Origin: a virus
IMG/VR virus record: IMGVR_UViG_3300023097_000004
Span: 1-58,417 of that record
DNA length: 58,417 nucleotides
Reading direction: 5' to 3' (one strand)
The notes under the pieces are model-generated. The model saw nothing but the letters and a program-made list of their open reading frames with translations, had not been told where the DNA came from and made no database searches. A program made the translations under genes and the position numbers. This document shows, piece after piece, positions 33,025-55,185 of this stretch. Every line of letters begins with the position of its first letter. The stretch's first letter is position 1.

Positions 33025-33879
33025 ATGTCTAAGATCATGTTGCTAGGCGATACTCATGGCAACACAAAATTTATTTTCAGAGCAATTAGAGAAGCTAAAG
33101 CTCAAGGTGTTAGCTGGATTTACCAAGTAGGAGACTTTGGATATTGGGAGCATTCTCCTTGGGGAGTAGTGTATCTTAATCATGTAAGTGAAGCTTTAAT
33201 GGATGCTAAGATTGAATTAGTATTTATTCAGGGTAATCATGATAAGGTATCTCTTATTCCAGAGAAGTACAGCGCTATGCAGGGATTTTACTCTATCCGT
33301 CCTGGTCTATGGTATGCTCCTAATGGAACCTTTTGGGATTTTCATGGGAAATCATTTCTAGTTCTTGGTGGAGCTTACTCTGTAGATAAGGATATTCGTC
33401 TAGAGGATGAGGACATTAAAGCCCATCAAGAGGCTAAGGTAATGTTTGCTAAGAGCGGATATCCTTGGGCTCGTTGCCTAGATGAGGCACGTCAGAAAAC
33501 TGCTGGAACTTCTTGGTTTCCTGAGGAAGAAATGTCAGATAGTGATTTGGATAGAATCCTAGATGAGGTTAAGAATGAGCGAGTAGATGTTATTCTAGCT
33601 CACGATAAGCCTATCTCTAGTAATCCAATGACCAAGCTTCTTCCTATTCCAGAGACAATTCCTAACCAGCGCAGATTGCAGAAGGCTGTAAACACTCTTC
33701 AGCCTAAAATGTTTGTGCATGGACATTTGCATGTACGCTATAGAGATACTATTCGCTGTGGTGACGATAATGCATATACACTGGTTGAAGGGCTTGGTGC
33801 TGATGTACCTAACTTCAATCAATCCAGAACTGATTGGCGCGCAAATGATGCGTGGGAGATCCTAACTATAGGAGAATGA
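33025..33879 (+). CDS. Calcineurin-like phosphoesterase
   Basis: 284 residues. Complete metallophosphoesterase motif set: G-D-T-H-G-N (8-13), Q-V-G-D-F-G-Y (35-41), Q-G-N-H-D-K (70-75), L-A-H-D-K-P near 191-196 and V-H-G-H-L-H near 230-235. Acts on a phosphoester of unknown identity; homologues include Ser/Thr phosphatases and nucleic acid or cyclic nucleotide hydrolases. Confidence 0.85.
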   Translation: MSKIMLLGDTHGNTKFIFRAIREAKAQGVSWIYQVGDFGYWEHSPWGVVYLNHVSEALMDAKIELVFIQGNHDKVSLIPEKYSAMQGFYSIRPGLWYAPNGTFWDFHGKSFLVLGGAYSVDKDIRLEDEDIKAHQEAKVMFAKSGYPWARCLDEARQKTAGTSWFPEEEMSDSDLDRILDEVKNERVDVILAHDKPISSNPMTKLLPIPETIPNQRRLQKAVNTLQPKMFVHGHLHVRYRDTIRCGDDNAYTLVEGLGADVPNFNQSRTDWRANDAWEILTIGE

Positions 33880-33886
33880 GAATCTT

Positions 33887-34084
33887 GTGTTAGTGCATGA
33901 GGCTATCGAATTAGAAGTAAAATTATATGTTGGTTATTGTGAATTAGCAGCAAAGCATGAGCCAGATGAGTATATCTACAGGTTGATGGCTCATGCTGTC
34001 TTTTATCATATTCTTGAGCTACGTAGCACTAACCGATATTCCCCTCTTGGTGTCTTTGTAACGAGTAAACTCACCGATTCTTAA
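33887..34084 (+). CDS. Small hypothetical protein
   Basis: 65 residues from GTG 33887 (AGGAG 12 nt upstream; GTG 33893 is an alternative start). Helical with aromatic residues; no motif. A CCGATT (34074-34079) lies over its 3' end, 47 nt before the next start, and may be a promoter element for the following gene. Confidence 0.45.
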   Translation: MLVHEAIELEVKLYVGYCELAAKHEPDEYIYRLMAHAVFYHILELRSTNRYSPLGVFVTSKLTDS

Positions 34085-34126
34085 TAAGTGGCTAAATACA
34101 AGCCCTGATTGAGATGAGGTAAGGTT

Positions 34127-34507
34127 ATGGCACAGTCAAGCAAGTGGCACGCAACTCGTGAGGCTCGAATGAAAGAGCTTTTCGATGGTAAGCAATTTAC
34201 TGTTGAATCAGCATTCAAGAATGAAGAGCCTCAGGAGACTCCATTAGGATATAAGGTTAAGAGTGGTTGGCGTCTAGTCTCTACAGATGGTAGTATGCAC
34301 ATCGTAGTAGGTAAGTCATTACTAAATAAATTAGCTGATAGTGGCGCTGTTGAAAAGCCTGCAACCAGGAAGCGTGGTAGACCACGTAAAGAACAACCGC
34401 TTGAGCAGGCAGAGCAGTGGGCATCGAGAGATATTCCAGATGATGCTCAGCAAATAACTCAAGCAGGACCAACATACGATAATCCTAACGCAGATCAGAA
34501 GGCTTAA
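34127..34507 (+). CDS. Basic protein with AT-hook-like motif
   Basis: 126 residues. Residues about 80-90 read R-K-R-G-R-P-R-K-E, an AT-hook core (G-R-P flanked by basic residues), followed by an acidic Gln-rich tail. The N-terminal 70 residues are a small alpha/beta region. It could bind the AT-rich phage DNA. Set directly before the clamp-loader genes; no further function is evident. Confidence 0.55.
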   Translation: MAQSSKWHATREARMKELFDGKQFTVESAFKNEEPQETPLGYKVKSGWRLVSTDGSMHIVVGKSLLNKLADSGAVEKPATRKRGRPRKEQPLEQAEQWASRDIPDDAQQITQAGPTYDNPNADQKA

Positions 34508-34510
34508 TAT

Positions 34511-35296
34511 ATGTTAGTAGGTCACCAGGGGGTAATTGGGGCATTAAGTTCTCAGTTGCCCCCGGTTTCTATCATTACAGGTCCACCATCTGTGGGCAAA
34601 AGACTTATTGCGGCTCATGCTGCGATGACTAATAATATTTCTCGTGTAGATTTCACGGAGGTGCCTAAGCTTACAGTTAGCGAAGCTAGTAGAATCAAAA
34701 GTTTCATGTCTGTCAGCCCTATGCAACAATTGAAGTTTGCGCTCATAGACTTGGATAATGCTAGTACGCCAGCGATAAATGATCTACTGGTAGCATTAGA
34801 GAATCCTCCTAGCTATGCTAGATTCTCATTGATCTCTTCTAGTCGTGTACCTAGAACATTACGTACGCGCGCAGCTAAATTCACTGTAGGTCTATTATCT
34901 CAAGATGAATTACTACAGATTCTAGTAAGCAAGGGAATCGATGAAAAAGATGCATCTAAAGTTAGTAAGCTTGGTAGAGTGGATCTCGCTATTGCAGCGT
35001 GTTCTGGTATCGCATCGAGGACAACAGCTTTAACAGTTCTACAGGCAGCAATAAGCAATGACTATATTTTATTCGCACAAGCATATAAAGCAGTAGATGA
35101 TAATACAGCGAGAGTAATTCTTAATATCATGGAAGAGTCAGCATCCCAGAAGTGGAAGCTGTTCAACCCTGAATACCTAGGAGCCTTTGCAGATCGCAGA
35201 GTAGCGCTAGCTGTGCTATCATCATGGAGTAATGTCTCTGCTGCTCGCCCTAAGCTGGCAGTCAGAGCAGCACTAGAATCAATTATGAGAGGCTGA
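34511..35296 (+). CDS. Clamp loader delta'/gamma-like AAA+ subunit
   Basis: 261 residues. Walker A G-P-P-S-V-G-K-R near 24-31; A-L-I-D-L-D-N-A near 76-83 in the Walker B position; L-L-V-A-L-E-N-P-P-S-Y-A-R-F near 90-103 and S-S-S-R-V-P-R-T-L-R-T-R near 107-118 match the V-E-E-P-P...S-x-x-x-x-x-L-x-x-x-x-R-S-R pattern of DnaX/HolB. It would open a sliding clamp together with the delta-like protein at 35633. Confidence 0.72.
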   Translation: MLVGHQGVIGALSSQLPPVSIITGPPSVGKRLIAAHAAMTNNISRVDFTEVPKLTVSEASRIKSFMSVSPMQQLKFALIDLDNASTPAINDLLVALENPPSYARFSLISSSRVPRTLRTRAAKFTVGLLSQDELLQILVSKGIDEKDASKVSKLGRVDLAIAACSGIASRTTALTVLQAAISNDYILFAQAYKAVDDNTARVILNIMEESASQKWKLFNPEYLGAFADRRVALAVLSSWSNVSAARPKLAVRAALESIMRG

Positions 35297-38560: not shown

Positions 38561-38584
38561 GTGGTTATCCTTTAAGCAAACCAC
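38561..38584 (+). repeat. Small hairpin before DNA polymerase gene
   Basis: GTGGTT (38561-38566) and AACCAC (38579-38584) form a 6-bp stem with a 12-nt loop just after the HNH stop codon. It may be a weak terminator or part of the polymerase leader; no U tract follows. Confidence 0.35.
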
Positions 38585-38599
38585 AGATCAGGAGAGCAG

Positions 38600-41023
38600 A
38601 TGTCTACAGTTAATAAGAATTATGATGTAGTACGTTCCACAGAAGAGTTAAGTCAATTCTTTGATAAGATCGTCGCAGAAGGTAAGCCATTTGGTTTCGA
38701 TATTGAAACTGGATATCACGGTCCTGATGATGATCGAGGTTCACTTAAGCTAGAGACAAATTTACTTGTAGGTTTTAGCTTTACTAATTCACTTAACTGG
38801 GCAAGGTATGTACCTCTTGCTCATGATTTTGCAGAGAACATTACAGATCATATGCGAGTAGCAGAAATTCTATGGTCAGCATTTAAGACAAAACTATTAG
38901 TAGCTCACAATGTAGGATTCGAACTTAGGCGAATGGCTAGGTTCTTCCGAGAAATGCTATCTGATCATCCTCTATACGGTAAAGAAGTTACAGAATCTAA
39001 GGGATATTTCCCTGTTCGTTCTTGTACCCAGGTAGAGGCATATATTCTTAGAGAATTCCAGGAGTTTGGTCTTAAGGATCTGGTACTTAATAAATTCCAG
39101 CATCAGATGATCAAGTTTGAAGAACTATTCGATAAGCTAACTGAGAAGAACAAGAAGGCTTTTCGATTCAATGTACTTGACCTGACAAATAAGGTCATTA
39201 CGTATGCTTGTGAGGATGCACTCTGGTGTCTAGGTCTTCATCTAGATGCTTACCCTAAAGTTAAAGATCAGCTCATGTATAAAGTGGATATGGAAATCTG
39301 CTATGTCATTTGTGACATGGAAGATTGTGGTATTCGCTATGACTGGTTCTTTATGCAGGAGGCATCAGCAAGAGCTAAAGACTTCACAGCTTTGTTGAAC
39401 GACGAGATTCAAACTGAACTAGCTCACCTACTGGGTATGGGTGAAACTAAGCTCAACGTAAATCTGGCAAGCCCTAAACAGCTATCTGAGATCCTGTACG
39501 ATCGCCTAGGTTTGGTAGTCAACATCTACACCACAAGTACTAAGGGTGCAGCTAAGGCTGATAAGAAGATGTCTACAGGTAAAATGGCTCTTGATGCGCT
39601 AGCTGAGAAGCATCCTGTCGTCAAGAAGATTTCTCAATATAAGAATCTTAAGCGTCTTACCGGATCATTCCTGGATAAGTATGCAAAAGATTATGGGTAT
39701 GCTCCTGATGGAATGGTACACCCATCACTTAACCAGAGTTATGTGCGTACTGCTCGATTCTCATCAGCTAATCCAAACCAGCAGAATCAGCCATCAATCA
39801 ATATTAAGACACCAGAGGGCAAGTACCTAAGCTATTGGTACACACTTAATAATGGAATTGAATTTAAGCTGAACTTCAGGGATGCAGTAATTGCACCAGA
39901 GGATTTTTACATCCTTGGATTCGACCTTTCACAGGCTGAGTATCGTGCTGCCGCTGGACTGGCAGATGAGACAGCTCTTATTGAGGCATTCGCTAATGAT
40001 GAGGATGTCCACACTAAGGTAGCTGCTATGATGTTCAAGGTGCCTATGGATAAAGTTACTAAAGAACTTAGGTCAAAGGCTAAGACTCTAGGATTCGGAC
40101 TTTTGTTCGGTATGACTGCATCAGCTCTGGCAAAAAGGCTTAACTGTTCTATTGAAGAGGCTGAGGATCTGTTTGCTCAGTACTTCGCAGCATTTCCTAA
40201 GCTTAAGCGTTGGACAGATAAGCAGATTGAATACGGCTATGAACATGGTTATGTAGTAACTAAGTTTGGCCGTAAGATCCCTATCTGGGAATTGCAGGAC
40301 TCTCGCCGCTGGATTCGTGAGGGTGGAGAGCGTGCCTGCTTCAATTATCCTGTTCAGGGTGGAGCTACAGGTGACTATGTTCGTATTGGAATGGTTAGAG
40401 CCCGTAAAGTAATTCAGCAGAATGGTTGGCAGGATAAAGTTCGACTGTTCATGAACGTTCACGACGCTCTTGAATTCTATGTTCACCGCAGCCTTGATCC
40501 AGTAGAGGTAATCCATGCTCTACAGCCAGCAGTAATCTTTGATGTTCCTGGCTGGCCTAAGATGGTAGCTGACTGGCATATCGGAAAGCGTTGGGGATCA
40601 GTAAAGGAGCTAGAGCTAGATTCAGATGGAACAGTAAGAGTTAAGGATGGACCTACTCTAGGAACTAGATACTTACCTACACTTCAAAATGAAGAGGTAG
40701 CAGTGGAGGAACCTAGTAGGAATACATACTTACCTACACTTGGATCTGAGGATGAGCAGCAGTCTAAGCACATCATTGTGGAGCTGAAGAATATGCCTAC
40801 TAAGGATAAGTTCAAGGCTTTCATTGATTATGCGACCAAGGTAGAGGGAACTAATACTATTGAAGTCAAGACTCCTGTAGGTGTAGCTGCAATTCCTATT
40901 ACTACAGGATTAACTCCTGAGAAGTATGCATCTGTTATCCGTAGTTTGTTCGATGATGCTGAGACCTACTATAAGGTTTCTGAGCAGGCGCTTGATGATC
41001 TTGCTGCTGACATTGCATTCTAA
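38600..41023 (+). CDS. DNA polymerase I-like (family A) with 3'-5' exonuclease domain
   Basis: 807 residues, AGGAGAG upstream. Exonuclease: F-G-F-D-I-E-T-G near 30-37 (D-x-E), L-V-A-H-N-V-G-F-E near 98-106, and Y-A-C-E-D-A near 199-204. Polymerase: motif A D-L-S-Q-A-E-Y-R near 441-448, motif B R-S-K-A-K-T-L-G-F-G-L-L-F-G near 491-504, motif C V-H-D-A near 619-622. The last about 130 residues are an unusual extension with a duplicated Y-L-P-T-L (about 690 and 711) and a small alpha/beta tail. Main phage replicase. Confidence 0.92.
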   Translation: MSTVNKNYDVVRSTEELSQFFDKIVAEGKPFGFDIETGYHGPDDDRGSLKLETNLLVGFSFTNSLNWARYVPLAHDFAENITDHMRVAEILWSAFKTKLLVAHNVGFELRRMARFFREMLSDHPLYGKEVTESKGYFPVRSCTQVEAYILREFQEFGLKDLVLNKFQHQMIKFEELFDKLTEKNKKAFRFNVLDLTNKVITYACEDALWCLGLHLDAYPKVKDQLMYKVDMEICYVICDMEDCGIRYDWFFMQEASARAKDFTALLNDEIQTELAHLLGMGETKLNVNLASPKQLSEILYDRLGLVVNIYTTSTKGAAKADKKMSTGKMALDALAEKHPVVKKISQYKNLKRLTGSFLDKYAKDYGYAPDGMVHPSLNQSYVRTARFSSANPNQQNQPSINIKTPEGKYLSYWYTLNNGIEFKLNFRDAVIAPEDFYILGFDLSQAEYRAAAGLADETALIEAFANDEDVHTKVAAMMFKVPMDKVTKELRSKAKTLGFGLLFGMTASALAKRLNCSIEEAEDLFAQYFAAFPKLKRWTDKQIEYGYEHGYVVTKFGRKIPIWELQDSRRWIREGGERACFNYPVQGGATGDYVRIGMVRARKVIQQNGWQDKVRLFMNVHDALEFYVHRSLDPVEVIHALQPAVIFDVPGWPKMVADWHIGKRWGSVKELELDSDGTVRVKDGPTLGTRYLPTLQNEEVAVEEPSRNTYLPTLGSEDEQQSKHIIVELKNMPTKDKFKAFIDYATKVEGTNTIEVKTPVGVAAIPITTGLTPEKYASVIRSLFDDAETYYKVSEQALDDLAADIAF

Positions 41024-50469: not shown

Positions 50470-50471
50470 GC

Positions 50472-50500
50472 TTGACACTCTGGTAGAGTTGATGTAAGGT
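50472..50500 (+). promoter_or_regulatory. Sigma70-like promoter of a structured RNA
   Basis: TTGACA (50472-50477), 17-nt spacer, TAAGGT (50495-50500), then AGTAG. No start codon follows at a usable distance. Nearly identical -10 surroundings (TAAGGTAGTAG) occur at 53556. Confidence 0.68.
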
Positions 50501-50506
50501 AGTAGT

Positions 50507-50610
50507 TGTTAGCGAGGTAGTGAAGCAAGGTGTGGCGACCTTGTGAGGAACGAGGTGCGCTGAGGACCCGTATTCTGCATATAGTGGCAGGGGTTACTCG
50601 ATCTCGCTAA
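50507..50610 (+). ncRNA. Predicted structured non-coding RNA
   Basis: About 104 nt starting where the promoter predicts. TTAGCGAG (50509-50516) and CTCGCTAA (50603-50610) form an 8-bp closing helix. Inside, CAAGGT-GTGGCG-ACCTTG is a perfect 6-bp hairpin, and CTGC/GCAG with ACCC/GGGGT form a second arm. No ORF of merit. I do not recognise a known RNA family. Confidence 0.6.
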
Positions 50611-50618
50611 TAAGCCAC

Positions 50619-50647
50619 TTGACAGAAGCTTACCGATAAGGTAAAGT
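50619..50647 (+). promoter_or_regulatory. Promoter of the first tRNA cluster
   Basis: TTGACA (50619-50624), 17-nt spacer that includes CCGATA (50633-50638), TAAAGT (50642-50647). TTACC and GGTAA flank the GATAA core. Either both promoter classes overlap here or the CCGATA is a chance match. Confidence 0.62.
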
Positions 50648-50652
50648 AGTAC

Positions 50653-50696
50653 ATGTAAGCAGGTAACAGCCTGGTAGACCAGATGCTTGCTTACAT
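50653..50696 (+). ncRNA. Structured 5' leader of tRNA cluster 1
   Basis: ATGTAAGCA (50653-50661) and TGCTTACAT (50688-50696) form a 9-bp helix with an inner CTGG-TAGA-CCAG arm, ending 3 nt before tRNA-Arg. The leader at 53567 has the same design. Possibly a processing signal. Confidence 0.5.
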
Positions 50697-50699
50697 CAA

Positions 50700-50772
50700 G
50701 TCCGCATAGCTCAGTGGATAGAGCGCTTCGCTACGAACGAAGAGGTCGGGGGTTCAAATCCCTCTGTGGATA
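50700..50772 (+). tRNA. tRNA-Arg(ACG)
   Basis: Acceptor GTCCGCA/TGTGGAT, D arm GCTC/GAGC, anticodon stem CTTCG/CGAAG with loop CTACGAA (ACG), T arm GGGGG-TTCAAAT-CCCTC, discriminator A. C74 encoded. Confidence 0.92.
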
Positions 50773-50775
50773 CGT

Positions 50776-50821
50776 TGAAGGTCCGTTCATCAAGAGATTT
50801 GACGGTAATCTCTTGCCTTCA
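50776..50821 (+). repeat. Folded inter-tRNA spacer (Arg-Asp)
   Basis: TGAAGG (50776-50781)/CCTTCA (50816-50821) enclose a perfect 9-bp hairpin CAAGAGATT/AATCTCTTG with loop TGACGGT. Probably a processing hairpin. Confidence 0.5.
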
Positions 50822-50828
50822 GCTCCAA

Positions 50829-50901
50829 GCTTTCGTGGTGTAAAGGTTAGCATAGTTGATTGTCAATCAACAGGTGGGGGTTCGACTTCCCCTCGGGAGC
50901 G
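50829..50901 (+). tRNA. tRNA-Asp(GTC)
   Basis: Anticodon stem GTTGA/TCAAC with loop TTGTCAA (GTC), T loop TTCGACT, acceptor GCTTTCG/CGGGAGC with G-U pairs, discriminator G, C74 encoded. The acceptor/T-stem register is slightly ambiguous by one base. The ORF for a small zinc protein starts directly after C74. Confidence 0.85.
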
Positions 50902-50902
50902 C

Positions 50903-51037
50903 ATGGCTAAATGGATAATGTGTCAAACTTGTCATGGTAATGGTGTAATTCAAAAAGAAGTTAAGCCTGGGGTTTGGAAAGAAGTTAAGTGCCCTGCCAA
51001 GTGTAATAAAGGCAAGGTAAATATGGGCACAGTGTAA
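50903..51037 (+). CDS. Tiny zinc-ribbon protein directly joined to tRNA-Asp
   Basis: 44 residues starting right after C74 of tRNA-Asp. C-Q-T-C-H-G-N-G and a second C-P-A-K-C-N-K-G-K resemble a DnaJ-type CxxCxGxG zinc finger. The only SD-like sequence, GGGAG, is the tRNA acceptor strand. tRNA 3' processing would make the mRNA nearly leaderless. The next tRNA starts 2 nt after the stop codon. Confidence 0.65.
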   Translation: MAKWIMCQTCHGNGVIQKEVKPGVWKEVKCPAKCNKGKVNMGTV

Positions 51038-51038
51038 T

Positions 51039-51109
51039 GCGATATTAGCACAATGGTAGTGCGACTGCTTGCCATGCAGTATACAGGAGTTCGATTCTCC
51101 TATGTCGCT
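51039..51109 (+). tRNA. tRNA-Gly(GCC)
   Basis: Acceptor GCGATAT/ATGTCGC, anticodon stem ACTGC/GCAGT with loop TTGCCAT (GCC), T arm AGGAG-TTCGATT-CTCCT, discriminator T, C74 encoded. Confidence 0.92.
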
Positions 51110-51121
51110 CCGGAAGTTCAG

Positions 51122-51179
51122 TGAGAGTACGGTAAAAGGCTGAGATGACGCCCTTCGTCTGGATGAAGCAAACCTCTCA
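51122..51179 (+). repeat. Folded inter-tRNA spacer (Gly-Gly)
   Basis: TGAGAG (51122-51127)/CTCTCA (51174-51179) enclose two mutually exclusive small hairpins, GACG/CGTC and CTTC/GAAG. Possibly a processing structure. Confidence 0.4.
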
Positions 51180-51181
51180 AT

Positions 51182-51252
51182 GCGGATATGATGTAGTGGT
51201 AACATAAGTGATTTCCAATCATTTCTCGCCGGTTCGAACCCGGCTATCCGCT
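51182..51252 (+). tRNA. tRNA-Gly(TCC)
   Basis: Acceptor GCGGATA/TATCCGC, anticodon stem AGTGA/TCATT with loop TTTCCAA (TCC), T arm GCCGG-TTCGAAC-CCGGC, discriminator T, C74 encoded. Confidence 0.92.
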
Positions 51253-51253
51253 C

Positions 51254-51369
51254 GCAATAGATTATGCACACCGGTTAATGTCGCTGGGCGGAAGTGCTTA
51301 TGTGTGCTCATAGTGATACCCAGCAAGTCTCTGACAGAGCTGCCAAAGGACAGAGACCATAATCTTTGC
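51254..51369 (+). ncRNA. Predicted pseudoknotted structured RNA between tRNAs
   Basis: Closing helix GCAA(T)AGATTATG (51254-51266) with CATAATCTTTGC (51358-51369), 12 bp and one bulged T. GCACAC (51266-51271)/GTGTGC (51302-51307) and GCTGGG (51283-51288)/CCCAGC (51319-51324) interleave, which defines an H-type pseudoknot. GTCTCTG (51327-51333)/CAGAGAC (51351-51357) forms a third helix abutting the closing helix. No known class recognised. Confidence 0.65.
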
Positions 51370-51374
51370 AACAA

Positions 51375-51449
51375 GCCGTTGTAGCTTAATCAGGTTAAAG
51401 CCCTCGCTTGGTATGCGATGAGTAGCGCGTTCGAGCCGCGCTGACGGCT
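51375..51449 (+). tRNA. tRNA-Thr(GGT)
   Basis: Acceptor GCCGTTG/TGACGGC, D arm GCTT/AAGC, anticodon loop TTGGTAT (GGT) on stem CTCGC/GCGAT (outer pair mismatched), T arm GCGCG-TTCGAGC-CGCGC, discriminator T, C74 encoded. Confidence 0.88.
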
Positions 51450-51451
51450 CT

Positions 51452-51512
51452 TAGTTTGTATGGGCATAGGAGTCCCCTTGAAATAAAGGGCATGATACTT
51501 CCCAGCAAACTA
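51452..51512 (+). ncRNA. Repeated RNA element, copy 1 (Thr-Cys spacer)
   Basis: Closing stem TAGTTTG (51452-51458)/CAAACTA (51506-51512). The core TATGGGCATAG...CCCTTGAAATAAAGGGCAT...CCCA is shared with the copy at 54316. Inside are CCCTT-GAAAT-AAGGG and TGGG/CCCA. The closing stems differ in sequence between copies but both pair, which argues for a conserved RNA structure. Confidence 0.65.
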
Positions 51513-51516
51513 TCAT

Positions 51517-51595
51517 GCGCTATGGTAGTAGATGGATCTGCTGCTCGTCTGCAAAACGAGTTTATACATTTCCGGTTCGATTCCGGCATAGTGCT
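51517..51595 (+). tRNA. tRNA-Cys(GCA)
   Basis: Acceptor GCGCTAT/ATAGTGC, anticodon stem CTCGT/ACGAG with loop CTGCAAA (GCA), T arm CCGG-TTCGATT-CCGG, discriminator T, C74 encoded. The usual T at position 8 seems to be G. A small ORF starts directly after C74. Confidence 0.85.
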
Positions 51596-51596
51596 C

Positions 51597-51740
51597 ATGG
51601 TTAAAGTTGATATGACTAATTGGCAATGTCGATTGCCTCGATGCAGCTCAGTAGGTAAGTTTAAAATTACTGAAGAGCGTACTAAAAGTTATGTTACTAA
51701 GTGTAGGTCTTGCAGCCTAGTTAATGTTTTTATGAAGTAA
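51597..51740 (+). CDS. Tiny zinc-ribbon protein directly joined to tRNA-Cys
   Basis: 47 residues starting right after C74 of tRNA-Cys. W-Q-C-R-L-P-R-C-S-S near 9-18 and K-C-R-S-C-S near 35-40 give a C-x4-C...C-x2-C ribbon. No SD upstream other than tRNA sequence, which fits leaderless translation after tRNA release. Confidence 0.6.
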   Translation: MVKVDMTNWQCRLPRCSSVGKFKITEERTKSYVTKCRSCSLVNVFMK

Positions 51741-51741
51741 T

Positions 51742-51778
51742 CCGATAATACTCCTATCACATAGATGGGAGTATTTTT
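51742..51778 (+). promoter_or_regulatory. CCGATA motif overlapping a terminator/SD hairpin
   Basis: CCGATA (51742-51747) runs into AATACTCCTATC (51747-51758), which pairs with GATGGGAGTATT (51764-51775) over 12 bp with one G-U; a U tract follows. The 3' arm holds the SD GGGAG of the next gene. TAATGTTT at 51722 matches the sigma28 -35 consensus TAAAGTTT in 7 of 8 positions at the standard spacing. Confidence 0.6.
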
Positions 51779-52153
51779 ATGTCAGAAATACGTAAGACAC
51801 GAGTTCGTGTAGCGGTAGGCCCAGTAAAATCTGTTCATGATGGTGATACATTCACTATGGAATATTTAGATTTAGGCTGGGGGGTTAGAATATATCCTAT
51901 AGATGAAGGTGAGCCAGGTCACTGCTCTATCAGAATTACATTACCTGATGGCGGCTGGTATGACGCTCCCGAGACTAAGGATAAAGCCCGCTCTAAATTA
52001 GCCACTTCATACTTGAGGGCGATAATTCCTCAAGGGACAATTGTTTCTCTTGTGTCATATGGATTTACTATGGGAAGAACATTAGCGTCAGTAACCTTGC
52101 CAGATGGTCAAGATATTGCTACACTTATGATTCAAGCAGGCCATACTAAATAG
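51779..52153 (+). CDS. SNase-like (thermonuclease fold) nuclease
   Basis: 124 residues. V-H-D-G-D-T-F near 19-25, an Arg in S-I-R-I-T near 52-56, D-A-P-E-T near 64-68 and G-R-T-L-A-S-V near 99-105 follow the staphylococcal nuclease order, with the catalytic Arg, Glu, Arg triad likely present. Degrades nucleic acid, perhaps host DNA or RNA. No signal peptide, so it should act inside the cell. Confidence 0.75.
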   Translation: MSEIRKTRVRVAVGPVKSVHDGDTFTMEYLDLGWGVRIYPIDEGEPGHCSIRITLPDGGWYDAPETKDKARSKLATSYLRAIIPQGTIVSLVSYGFTMGRTLASVTLPDGQDIATLMIQAGHTK

Positions 52154-52229
52154 AAAATAGAGACCAAGCTCTAAGGTGCTGTATTTAGCCGAGACCTTTT
52201 ATGGTGCCTGTCGATGAGGTCTCTATTTT
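52154..52229 (+). repeat. 12-bp perfect inverted repeat between nuclease and dCTP deaminase genes
   Basis: AAAATAGAGACC (52154-52165) and GGTCTCTATTTT (52218-52229) pair perfectly. AAGGT/ACCTT can form inside. The 3' arm ends in a T tract, so it may terminate transcription or control the gene that starts 15 nt later. Confidence 0.55.
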
Positions 52230-52244
52230 CATGGGGAGACATGA

Positions 52245-52853
52245 GTGCTATTATCTAATAGAGATATACTTGAAGAGAAGCGATTTGACAATATTGTCAT
52301 AGAGCCATTCCACCCTGAATTAATGCAGCCATCTAGTTATGATGTAACGTTGAGCTGCGAATTTCTAGTACAGAGGCGTACTCACCCTGATTACCTAGCC
52401 TTTAATGATGTAATAGATCCTAAAGTAGATAGCTCTAATCATTTCCAAGCTGTTACCGTACCCAAGGGTTCAGCTATTGAGATAAAGCCTGATAGCTTTA
52501 TTCTTGCATCAACCCACGAGGCTATTGCTTTAGGTGCTAATATAACTGCAAGGTGTGAAGGTAAGTCAAGTTTAGGTAGACTAGGTTTACAGATTCATTC
52601 AACTGCTGGGTTTATTGACCCAGGATTTGAGGGAACTGTTACCTTAGAATTATCTAATAATGGAACTACGCCTATTCTATTATATCCTGGAATGAAGATT
52701 GCTCAGCTATGCTTTTTCAAGCTACCTCAGCCATCTACTATTCTTTATGGTTCTAGATTTGCTGGATCTCATTATCAAAACCAGAGCGGACCCACAGCTA
52801 GCAAGGTTCATGAGAACTTCAAAATTTATGATGTGTACCCTGTTGACGAGTAG
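52245..52853 (+). CDS. dcd: dCTP deaminase
   Basis: 202 residues, GTG start with GGGGAG 7 nt upstream. Family signature: P-S-S-Y-D-V-T-L near 29-36, C-E-G-K-S-S-L-G-R-L-G near 105-115, T-A-G-F-I-D-P-G-F-E-G near 119-129, then E-L-S-N near 134 and G-M-K-I-A-Q-L near 148-154. Converts dCTP to dUTP; with dUTPase it makes dUMP. Confidence 0.92.
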   Translation: MLLSNRDILEEKRFDNIVIEPFHPELMQPSSYDVTLSCEFLVQRRTHPDYLAFNDVIDPKVDSSNHFQAVTVPKGSAIEIKPDSFILASTHEAIALGANITARCEGKSSLGRLGLQIHSTAGFIDPGFEGTVTLELSNNGTTPILLYPGMKIAQLCFFKLPQPSTILYGSRFAGSHYQNQSGPTASKVHENFKIYDVYPVDE

Positions 52854-52871
52854 CCAATGCCAGAGTAGACT
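52843..52871 (+). promoter_or_regulatory. Leaderless promoter within end of dcd
   Basis: TTGACG (52843-52848), 17-nt spacer, TAGACT (52866-52871), then 6 nt to ATG 52878. Confidence 0.65.
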
Positions 52872-52877
52872 GCTAGG

Positions 52878-52904
52878 ATGCATGACATAAATTGGAGTAA
52901 TTGA
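52878..52904 (+). CDS. 8-residue leaderless leader peptide
   Basis: ATG 52878 lies 6 nt after the -10 and opens a peptide M-H-D-I-N-W-S-N whose stop TGA overlaps the next ATG (TGATG). GGAG, the SD of the following gene, lies in its last codons. It may simply deliver ribosomes to the next gene by coupling. Confidence 0.45.
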   Translation: MHDINWSN

Positions 52905-53125
52905 TGTTGCCTAGAAAATTCTACAGTATGAAAGCAAATGAACTTGCTGAAAACTTAGATGTAGCTAAAGACGCATTAAAGACCTTTAAGACGGGTCCTG
53001 AGCATTTACGCAGTAGAGTATCAGCTCAGGAAAGACTTGTTCTAGAGTTAACTAATCTCAGGAAAAAGAAGCTGCTTGAAGAGAAGGATGCTAAGCGTAA
53101 AGAAGCTAGAGCTAAGAAGGCTTGA
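52904..53125 (+). CDS. Small basic coiled-coil protein
   Basis: 73 residues from ATG 52904. Helical and strongly basic, ending in a Lys/Arg/Ala-rich tail (K-R-K-E-A-R-A-K-K-A). May bind nucleic acid; no family recognised. The next promoter overlaps its stop codon. Confidence 0.58.
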   Translation: MLPRKFYSMKANELAENLDVAKDALKTFKTGPEHLRSRVSAQERLVLELTNLRKKKLLEEKDAKRKEARAKKA

Positions 53126-53150
53126 CGAGGACTCCACAGTAGAGTAAGCT
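53122..53150 (+). promoter_or_regulatory. Leaderless promoter
   Basis: TTGACG (53122-53127), 17-nt spacer, TAAGCT (53145-53150), then 6 nt to ATG 53157. Confidence 0.68.
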
Positions 53151-53156
53151 CATCTC

Positions 53157-53276
53157 ATGGCAAAAGATAAGAGGGAAGAGCCCAAGGGTGGAGCACACCG
53201 CAAGGGCAAGTATCGATGCAAGGCACAAGGTTGTCCTGGTCACAAGAGTAAAGATGGTTTCTGTACTCTCCTGTAG
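53157..53276 (+). CDS. Tiny basic zinc-binding candidate, leaderless
   Basis: 39 residues starting at the predicted transcription start. Lys/Gly-rich, with Y-R-C-K-A-Q-G-C-P-G-H and a late F-C; C-x4-C-x2-H-type spacing hints at a zinc knuckle. No SD. Confidence 0.62.
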   Translation: MAKDKREEPKGGAHRKGKYRCKAQGCPGHKSKDGFCTLL

Positions 53277-53279
53277 TAC

Positions 53280-53308
53280 TTGACGAATCTGACAGAGTAG
53301 GATAAGCT
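53280..53308 (+). promoter_or_regulatory. Leaderless promoter
   Basis: TTGACG (53280-53285), 17-nt spacer, TAAGCT (53303-53308), then 6 nt to ATG 53315. Confidence 0.68.
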
Positions 53309-53314
53309 ACTTAC

Positions 53315-53524
53315 ATGACCAAAACAGTAAGCTACACCACTAAGAAGTGCATGTTCTGTGGTAAGTCGAAGAAGATCGACCTGCCTGAGGATGGCTTTAA
53401 CAAGTGGAAATCAGGTGAGTTTGTGCAGGTTGCCTTTCCAGGGCTATCCCCTGATACTCGTGAACTTCTGATTACGGGTGTTGACAGTAAGTGCTGGGAT
53501 GACAACATGGCTGATGAGGACTAA
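53315..53524 (+). CDS. Small protein with CxxC, leaderless
   Basis: 69 residues. K-K-C-M-F-C-G-K-S-K-K near 11-21 resembles a half zinc ribbon; the rest is a short alpha/beta region with Q-V-A-F-P-G-L-S. Similar small proteins are common in actinobacteriophages. Function unknown. Confidence 0.65.
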   Translation: MTKTVSYTTKKCMFCGKSKKIDLPEDGFNKWKSGEFVQVAFPGLSPDTRELLITGVDSKCWDDNMADED

Positions 53525-53532
53525 ATAAGTAC

Positions 53533-53561
53533 TTGACAGCCTGTAAGACATGGTGTAAGGT
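53533..53561 (+). promoter_or_regulatory. Promoter of the second tRNA cluster
   Basis: TTGACA (53533-53538), 17-nt spacer, TAAGGT (53556-53561), then AGTAG and the leader helix. Confidence 0.68.
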
Positions 53562-53566
53562 AGTAG

Positions 53567-53626
53567 ATGTAAGTGATGTTCCTGAGTACACAGCTCAGAC
53601 ACCTGGCGGTGACGGCCCACTTACAT
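53567..53626 (+). ncRNA. Structured 5' leader of tRNA cluster 2
   Basis: ATGTAAGTG (53567-53575)/CACTTACAT (53618-53626) form a 9-bp helix around two arms, CTGAG/CTCAG and CACC/GGTG, ending 3 nt before tRNA-Ala. Same plan as the leader at 50653 but with two inner arms and a changed closing stem. Confidence 0.5.
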
Positions 53627-53629
53627 TAT

Positions 53630-53702
53630 GGGATCGTAGCTCCAACGGTAGAGCGCCTGTTTTGCAATCAGGAGGATGACGGTTCGAATCCGTCCGGTTC
53701 CA
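53630..53702 (+). tRNA. tRNA-Ala(TGC)
   Basis: Acceptor GGGATCG/CGGTTCC, D arm GCTC/GAGC, anticodon loop TTTGCAA (TGC), T arm with TTCGAAT, discriminator A, C74 encoded. The innermost anticodon stem pair is T-T. Confidence 0.88.
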
Positions 53703-54065
53703 CGTAAAGAGTGAAGTAAATGGCAGTAACAGGTTCGATTCCTGCTTAGGTATGGTACTAAGGCTAAGCCAAATTGGGGGCACCCGCTGGAAAGGTTCAA
53801 TTCCTTTCACTTTACTCTTACAGATTTAGAGTACACAGTAAGTTACTTGTCCATGTGGGCGCTAATTAAATGCTAATGTGCTGATGTACTCTAACATACA
53901 TAAATCTTGGATCTGGGAAAGTGTGCTAGACTAGCGGTGGGAGTCCGTGTTACGATTTATGCTAAGCTTCTAGATTGTTATAGCTGTGGGTAACGATAAT
54001 GCGGTCTAGAATATAGGGTCAGTTAACTTAAGCTCTTGCTGATCTGAAAATTTCCACGGCACCAA
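53703..54065 (+). other. Long non-coding stretch with T-arm-like and helical segments
   Basis: No credible gene in 363 nt. Near 53730 and 53795 there are two T-arm-like units, ACAGG-TTCGATT-CCTGC and GAAAGG-TTCAATT-CCTTTC, within a helix GTAAAG/CTTTAC. Then TAGAGTAC/GTACTCTA (about 53826-53895) and TTCTAGA/TCTAGAA (about 53968-54014) close further domains. It could hold decayed tRNAs or one large structured RNA. Confidence 0.45.
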
Positions 54066-54136
54066 GCCCGGTTCGTCTAATGGGAGGGCCGCACGTTTAC
54101 ACCGTGCAGACGGCAGTTCGATTCTGTCACCGGGTA
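54066..54136 (+). tRNA. tRNA-Val(TAC)
   Basis: Acceptor GCCCGGT/ACCGGGT, anticodon stem GCACG/CGTGC with loop TTTACAC (TAC), T arm GGCAG-TTCGATT-CTGTC, discriminator A, C74 encoded. Confidence 0.92.
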
Positions 54137-54152
54137 CTTGAAAGGCAATTAT

Positions 54153-54226
54153 GGATCGGTAGCTCAGCGGTATAGAGCAGTGGACTCTTAATCCATTGGT
54201 CGTGGGTTCGAATCCCACTCGATCCA
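54153..54226 (+). tRNA. tRNA-Lys(CTT)
   Basis: Acceptor GGATCGG/TCGATCC, anticodon stem GTGGA/TCCAT with loop CTCTTAA (CTT), T arm GTGGG-TTCGAAT-CCCAC, discriminator A, C74 encoded. Confidence 0.92.
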
Positions 54227-54238
54227 CATCTTAAAAAT

Positions 54239-54313
54239 GGTTCATTAGCTTAGTCTGGCTAAAGCAGCGGCCTCTTAATCCGAAGATCCTCGGTTCGAAT
54301 CCGAGATGAACCA
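54239..54313 (+). tRNA. tRNA-Lys(CTT), second copy with mismatched anticodon stem
   Basis: Acceptor GGTTCAT/ATGAACC, loop CTCTTAA (CTT), T arm CTCGG-TTCGAAT-CCGAG. The anticodon stem GCGGC/TCCGA has mismatches at both ends (C-T and G-A). Its arms resemble the Lys(TTT) tRNA at 54385. It may be a diverged or failing copy. Confidence 0.82.
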
Positions 54314-54315
54314 CT

Positions 54316-54378
54316 TGAAATTGTATGGGCATAGACATTCCCTTGGAATAAAGGGCATATCCTTTCCCAACAATTTCA
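54316..54378 (+). ncRNA. Repeated RNA element, copy 2 (Lys-Lys spacer)
   Basis: Closing stem TGAAATTG (54316-54323)/CAATTTCA (54371-54378), core TATGGGCATAG...CCCTTGGAATAAAGGGCAT...CCCA. Homologous to 51452-51512 with compensatory differences in the closing stem. Confidence 0.65.
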
Positions 54379-54384
54379 TTTAAT

Positions 54385-54460
54385 GATCCATTAGCTCAGT
54401 CTGGTATAGAGCAGCGGACTTTTAATCCGAAGTGCGTAGGTTCAAATCCTACATGGATCA
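54385..54460 (+). tRNA. tRNA-Lys(TTT)
   Basis: Acceptor GATCCAT/ATGGATC, anticodon stem GCGGA/TCCGA with loop CTTTTAA (TTT), T arm GTAGG-TTCAAAT-CCTAC, discriminator A, C74 encoded. Confidence 0.9.
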
Positions 54461-54696
54461 CCGTTGGTTATGCTCGGGTGACTTTCCATTGAGGAAACGG
54501 AACCTGGGGGTACAGTATTCAAAAGCATGTGTGCCAGCATATGTTATTCAGTTCAGGACGGCCAAGAGTCGTAAGTTCTGGGAGCTGTAATGGTAAAAGC
54601 AGGGCTGGCACCCTGTTAGATTCGTGGCTTTAGCTTACAAGGGAAAGCGCTCCTGCGAAAGGGAGAGAGACGGTTCGATTCCGTGGGTCGCACAAT
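54461..54696 (+). other. tRNA-like non-coding stretch
   Basis: No gene in 236 nt. CCGTT/AACGG closes a first hairpin. Near 54575-54615 a D-arm-like GCT/AGC precedes CAGGG-CTGGCA-CCCTG. Near 54628-54690 a second D-arm-like GCTT/AAGC, a short stem-loop and a perfect T arm ACGG-TTCGATT-CCGT follow. I could not find a 5' acceptor strand that pairs with the 3' end, so these look like broken or fused tRNAs. Confidence 0.4.
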
Positions 54697-54769
54697 GCCC
54701 TAGTAGCTCAATGGATAGAGCAGGCGGTTTCTACCCGTCAGGTTGGGGGTTCGAATCCCTCCTGGGGCA
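54697..54769 (+). tRNA. tRNA-Arg(TCT)
   Basis: Acceptor GCCCTAG/CTGGGGC, anticodon stem GGCGG/CCGTC with loop TTTCTAC (TCT), T loop TTCGAAT, discriminator A, C74 encoded. A small ORF starts directly after C74. Reads AGA/AGG, which are frequent in this phage and rare in GC-rich hosts. Confidence 0.92.
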
Positions 54770-54770
54770 C

Positions 54771-54899
54771 ATGGCTAAAAAGTGCGAACAGCACGGAGAT
54801 AGAATAATTATTACTAAAGGTATTACTCGATGCTATTATTGTGGTAGAGCCTTAACTCCAAATCACTTTAAGGGGAAGCCTAAAAACAATGGAGTGTAA
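54771..54899 (+). CDS. Tiny zinc-ribbon protein directly joined to tRNA-Arg
   Basis: 42 residues starting right after C74 of tRNA-Arg. K-C-E-Q-H-G-D near 4-10 and R-C-Y-Y-C-G-R-A near 20-27 form a CxxH...CxxC ribbon. No SD apart from tRNA bases. Third example of this tRNA-ORF junction. Overlaps the next gene by 11 nt. Confidence 0.65.
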   Translation: MAKKCEQHGDRIIITKGITRCYYCGRALTPNHFKGKPKNNGV

Positions 54900-55185
54900 G
54901 AGGCACGGCATTAACATGTTTGTAGATGCGCAAGATAATCTACGATGCAAAGATTGCTATGATATTATTGCTAGGGTCAAGCGCCCAGGCGTAAACACTG
55001 CAAATGCAGTTCAACGAATCAAGAAAGATAAATACCCTACAGTTAAAAAGGGTGATAAAATCACCTGTGCTGGCTGTAAAGGTAAGGGTATTGTACTTGT
55101 CAGACCTGCTAACAAGAAGACAGGTGAACTTGCAGTTAAAGATACTTGCAAGGGCTGTAAGGGTAGACGATACTTCATAGTCTGA
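54889..55185 (+). CDS. Small protein with two zinc ribbons
   Basis: 98 residues. First ribbon C-K-R-H-G near 3-7 with C-K-D-C near 19-22, closely similar to the 54771 product; second C-A-G-C-K-G-K-G near 60-67 with C-K-G-C-K-G near 88-93, DnaJ-like CxxCxGxG. It looks like a fusion of the two ribbon types seen as separate small genes nearby. Function unknown. Confidence 0.65.
   Translation: MECKRHGINMFVDAQDNLRCKDCYDIIARVKRPGVNTANAVQRIKKDKYPTVKKGDKITCAGCKGKGIVLVRPANKKTGELAVKDTCKGCKGRRYFIV

Follow-up and report, generated by a model that had tools for sequence, protein, structure and literature searches.

A candidate structured RNA between two tRNA genes of an uncultivated phage and its neighbouring spacer RNAs

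Results

An element between tRNA-Gly and tRNA-Thr

The stretch of DNA analysed here (the window) comprises a 58,417-base record from an uncultivated phage, with tRNA genes from about 50.6 kb onwards. Within this array, tRNA-Gly(tcc) is followed directly by an element of about 116 nt, here termed S4, which takes up the whole gap to tRNA-Thr(ggt) except for a 5-nt linker (Table 1). The only listed open reading frame that touches S4 (50867-51271, minus strand) spans tRNA genes and covers just the first 18 nt of the element, and Rfam 15 gave no match inside it, either at gathering score across the window or in a sensitive scan of 50470-55000 at E up to 5. The original prediction, which had placed a structured RNA between two tRNAs, explained by no reading frame and matching no familiar RNA family, was supported on each of these points, and the S4 family is undescribed in Rfam 15. 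Neither ARAGORN nor the tRNA model detected a tRNA or tRNA-like pseudogene in 51254-51369, and we rejected the reading of S4 as a tRNA on that ground.

Table 1. Positions of S4, its helices and the features discussed with it (window coordinates unless a record is named)
Feature	Coordinates	Strand	Basis or remark
Sigma-70-like promoter, TTGACA-17-TAAAGT	50619-50647	+	10/12 consensus; ahead of the tRNA operon
S2, pseudoknotted spacer RNA	50774-50828	+	Same operon as S4; 5 double-change pairs vs L006
tRNA-Gly(tcc)	51182-51253	+	ARAGORN / Rfam; directly upstream of S4
S4, structured element	51254-51369	+	Helices, folding energy, homologue, consensus fold
H1, closing helix	51254-51266 with 51358-51369	+	12 pairs, 4 + 8 around bulged U51258
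H2, proposed pseudoknot helix	51266-51271 with 51302-51307	+	6 pairs; unsupported
H3	51283-51288 with 51319-51324	+	6 pairs
H4, hairpin	51327-51333 with 51351-51357	+	7 pairs; stacked on H1
AACAA linker, S4 to tRNA-Thr	51370-51374	+	Sequence
tRNA-Thr(ggt)	51375-51450	+	ARAGORN / Rfam; downstream of S4
Terminator-like stem	51747-51775	+	12 pairs + U tract, consensus match; operon end
Ro60/TROVE genes (loci L095-L100)	G002 90587-91483; G003 38567-39487; G004 33846-34715		Inside or beside tRNA arrays
Ro60/TROVE gene, Microbacterium phage Magritte	76553-78184		Beside tRNA genes

Four Watson-Crick helices of at least 6 pairs, and no others, fit in the 116 nt of S4, all present as they had been described. 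The closing helix, H1, is flush with the end of tRNA-Gly and leaves no unpaired nucleotide at either terminus, where the prediction had allowed for a few, and hairpin H4 directly adjoins it, as had been claimed. G51266 is used twice, in the eighth pair of H1 and the first pair of H2, and because both helices claim it the pairs of S4 cannot all form at once.

Chance expectations were taken from 4000 dinucleotide shuffles of S4. A closing helix of at least 11 pairs arose in none of them, a hairpin of at least 7 pairs alone in 402 and a 6+6 Watson-Crick H-type pseudoknot alone in 547; pseudoknot and hairpin jointly were uncommon (88/4000), and with G-U pairs permitted a 6+6 pseudoknot appeared in 1910 of 2000 shuffles. 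The proposal that such order exceeds chance thus stands for the closing helix and falls for the pseudoknot. The minimum free energy of the element, -30.7, is ordinary: shuffles average -29.5 (z -0.32), and 70 of 200 do as well or better. With a nested ensemble model, which cannot represent pseudoknots, H1 is near certain in the window copy, H3 has a probability of about 0.68 and H4 of about 0.57, while in the homologue described below the values are 0.8-0.9 and 0.99, respectively. S4 is probably a real folded RNA.

Conservation and distribution of S4

The single homologue of S4 (locus L004) lies in a related record, G001 (IMG/VR 3300023070_000001), in the same position between tRNA-Gly and tRNA-Thr; the tRNA-Gly upstream is identical at 72/72 positions, and 72 extra nucleotides separate the element from tRNA-Thr as compared with the window. 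The two copies differ at 12 of 117 aligned columns (92.1% identity), and all 12 differences lie outside the 38 columns that make up H1 and H4 (P=0.0067). H3 is also paired in the homologue, with one bulged A, and the RNAalifold common fold of the two copies is a three-way junction without a pseudoknot. H2 loses one of its six pairs there, the fourth, a C-G pair in the window that becomes a non-pairing G.A through changes at both positions. H2 and H3 do interleave, as an H-type pseudoknot would have them, but with a frequency at chance level in the shuffles and with H2 not conserved in the sole homologue we regard the pseudoknot as unsupported. In this comparison with one homologue no pair of S4 shows a compensatory change, so the fold is backed by conservation and not by compensation.

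We compared five related records: the window (G000), G001, G002 (L005), G003 (L006) and G004 (L074). S4 is absent from G002 and G003 in searches of both records, and from G004 when the flanking operon was used as query and when an S4 model (R1) was run on stretches of that record; the Gly-Thr slot of these three records appears to hold short reading frames. Across 28 sources, R1 matched only the window and L004, and across 30 further sources (16 new pattern loci and 14 dCTP-deaminase loci) its best score was 20.1 bits (E 0.25). A blastn search of phages with S4 returned five records with chance-level matches only, and S4 patterns retrieved 9, 2 and 2 stretches from viral_contigs, each set including the G001 copy, and 14 stretches from genome_contigs. 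S4 was not found in the two searched stretches (62000-133228) of Microbacterium phage Magritte, a distant cultured relative that shares the tRNA array and a Ro-like protein.

A putative tRNA operon around S4

The stretch from the promoter-like site to the terminator-like stem (Table 1) also holds tRNA-Arg, tRNA-Asp, a second tRNA-Gly and a Cys tRNA. Promoter-like matches in the region number 6 against 7.5 expected, which is weak evidence alone, and a similar TTGACA-N17-TAAGGT can be read by eye before tRNA-Arg in locus L003; terminator-like matches number 4 against 2.7 expected in shuffles. Since the promoter and terminator are single matches, no commoner than in shuffles, we infer the operon from its layout. 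A tRNA-Cys(gca)-like gene at 51516-51595 was missed by ARAGORN in the window and detected in L002; Rfam scores it as tRNA-Sec, just under the cut-off.

Other tRNA spacers of the lineage

In the window and G001, the first spacers are flanked by tRNAs that are 93-100% identical, except for the downstream Cys tRNA at only 70%, while three of the spacers (Arg-Asp 52.7%, Gly-Gly 51.6%, Thr-Cys 54.7%) align barely or show no relationship; S4 stands at 92.1%. Such divergence between near-identical tRNAs suggests that spacers are swapped like exchangeable cassettes. Of 40 spacers of 45-200 nt from the five records, some of them mutual homologues, 11 are closed near the flanking tRNAs by a helix of 7 pairs or more, against 1.04 expected from shuffles; spacers starting with ATG or with a GTG frame longer than 30 codons were left out of this count. 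With 72 nt following S4 in L004, the S4 spacer of that locus scored only 3, and the 11 of 40 is therefore not tuned to S4. In Magritte, a flush closing helix was found in none of 11 spacers. Folding energies average a z of -1.42 over 44 non-coding spacers, 13 of them below -2, but six spacers with longer open reading frames also average -1.26, so minimum free energy alone cannot separate the spacer classes.

Several neighbouring spacers covary. In G001-G004, the spacer preceding tRNA-Glu(ttc) (alignment A2, four sequences) forms an H-type pseudoknot in which 51/51 cells are paired, 7 of 13 pairs show double changes and the A-rich third loop is conserved. A second, larger pseudoknotted RNA, at window positions 54463-54623 and common to all five records, has 65/65 cells paired (five sequences) and double changes in 3 of 13 pairs; its long helix is invariant, only its short helix covaries, and the measure "further pair types" is not above shuffles. 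S2, compared in two sequences, has 5 of 18 pairs doubly changed and one pair broken, a result that 15 of 500 shuffles equal; its closing helix covaries with L006, and pairing is possible between the hairpin loop and the 5' bulge of the same RNA. The Pro-His spacers gave no sensible alignment with the S5 spacer family. By analogy, the covarying neighbours lend plausibility to S4 as a functional member of a set of this kind, an argument that bears on S4 indirectly.

As a separate observation, the window holds two paralogous spacer RNAs, at 51451-51515 and 54315-54384 (TATGGGCATAG ... AATAAAGGGCAT), whose closing stems, judged by eye, carry compensatory differences.

Discussion

We favour the interpretation, with a probability of roughly 0.6, that S4 is a small structured non-coding spacer-cassette RNA of a phage tRNA operon and that routine tRNA processing sets it free. 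The RNA would fold as a three-way junction composed of the 12-pair closing helix, the H3 arm and the H4 hairpin stacked on the closing helix, and would be co-transcribed with tRNA-Arg, -Asp, -Gly, -Gly, -Thr and -Cys. The 5' end of the RNA would arise from cleavage at the 3' end of tRNA-Gly and its 3' end from RNase P cutting ahead of tRNA-Thr, giving a product of about 121 nt, AACAA tail included, the ends of which the closing helix would tie and protect. Such an RNA may serve as an insulating or protective spacer or may act in trans as a small RNA. This interpretation draws on the closing helix that no shuffle reproduced, the unchanged H1 and H4, the retention of H3 and the consensus three-way junction, together with the tRNA-flush position, the bracketing promoter- and terminator-like sites, the 11 of 40 closing helices and three covarying spacer families; against it stand the ordinary folding energy, a single homologue without compensation, absence from three of the five records and the 0 of 11 spacers in Magritte.

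S4 is non-coding and lies within the predicted phage tRNA operon, and its kind resembles two stable RNAs from the tRNA cluster of phage T4, C and D, structured RNAs of about 100-150 nt that are not known to be related to S4 in sequence. Within a literature search conducted largely at the level of listings, nothing on phage tRNA spacers of this kind was found.

S4 could instead be a passive insulator whose closing helix prevents the neighbouring tRNAs from misfolding together, the released RNA being functionless and degraded. The recurrence of tRNA-flush closing helices around differing interiors, and the apparent exchange of spacer interiors between near-identical tRNA pairs, are what such a role would predict, but the interiors of some spacers are strongly conserved and covarying, and H4, which is unnecessary for tying the ends, is unchanged in the homologue. 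We consider this explanation possible, if unlikely. Distinctly improbable is a chance or decaying sequence, in which H1 would be what remains of an inverted repeat and the inner helices would be fortuitous: inner helices at or near chance frequency, an ordinary folding energy and the absence of S4 from three relatives would all fit, but a closing helix found in 0/4000 shuffles would not, nor would an H1 and H4 left unchanged while the rest of S4 accumulated 12 differences.

Very improbable, too, is that S4 belongs to an undescribed class of self-cleaving ribozymes and matures tRNA ends in the manner of theta ribozymes. Theta ribozymes are reported to be HDV-like and to sit at tRNA 3' ends in phages (PMC10879173), and S4 shares with them the placement of a folded RNA directly at the 3' end of a phage tRNA; unlike them, S4 has no nested double pseudoknot starting from the tRNA end. 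No ribozyme family of Rfam matched S4 at E up to 5. A minimal (P4-less) HDV-like descriptor had zero matches in the window array, and a P4-bearing descriptor found two starts somewhere in its 8067 nt; a deliberately relaxed descriptor gave many chance-like fits and was uninformative. The sole candidate 7-pair P1 beginning with G starts at nt 27 of S4, away from the tRNA end, and the conserved part of S4 is a simple closing helix. With no P1 at the tRNA 3' end within a nested double pseudoknot, we rejected an HDV-like or theta ribozyme as the identity of S4.

Ro60 (TROVE) genes lie within the tRNA arrays of three of the five records and beside tRNA genes in Magritte (Table 1), and directly upstream of the TROVE genes are Y-RNA-like repeats with GAGYCGRA, GGTTATC and tRNA-like modules, one of which gives a full-length but sub-threshold match to YrlA (29.8 bits vs 69). 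Bacterial and phage Y RNAs (Rfam YrlA, RF02553) are like S4 in lying in tRNA arrays and in having ends joined by a bulged helix, but S4 has neither the Y motif nor a tRNA-like module. The motif was not found in the window, and in the scanned stretches of G001 its single match coincides in part with tRNA-Glu and appears accidental. Neither the window nor G001, the only records with S4, yielded a TROVE gene, although both are fragments and its absence there is therefore not proven, and R1 found nothing in the TROVE neighbourhoods. That S4 is a phage Y RNA bound by a Ro60/TROVE protein is thus extremely improbable, and we rejected it.

If S4 and its neighbours are truly excised, phage tRNA arrays would also cradle non-coding RNAs that annotation has missed. 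The surrounding set of covarying, exchangeable spacer RNAs, several families of which covary enough for modelling and testing, is a more interesting result than S4 itself. A broader proposal, speculative and in our estimation quite unlikely, is that the lineage maintains, between its tRNA genes, a repertoire of interchangeable structured RNA cassettes that includes S4; the cassettes would be promoterless, excised by tRNA maturation alone and passed from phage to phage as defence or anti-defence genes are, for example as decoys for tRNA-cutting nucleases or RNA-decay enzymes. Among the other spacers of the lineage, the Leu-Leu spacer (L005 14745-14925; L006 14820-14919) holds a tRNA-like RNA with a greatly enlarged T-arm region.
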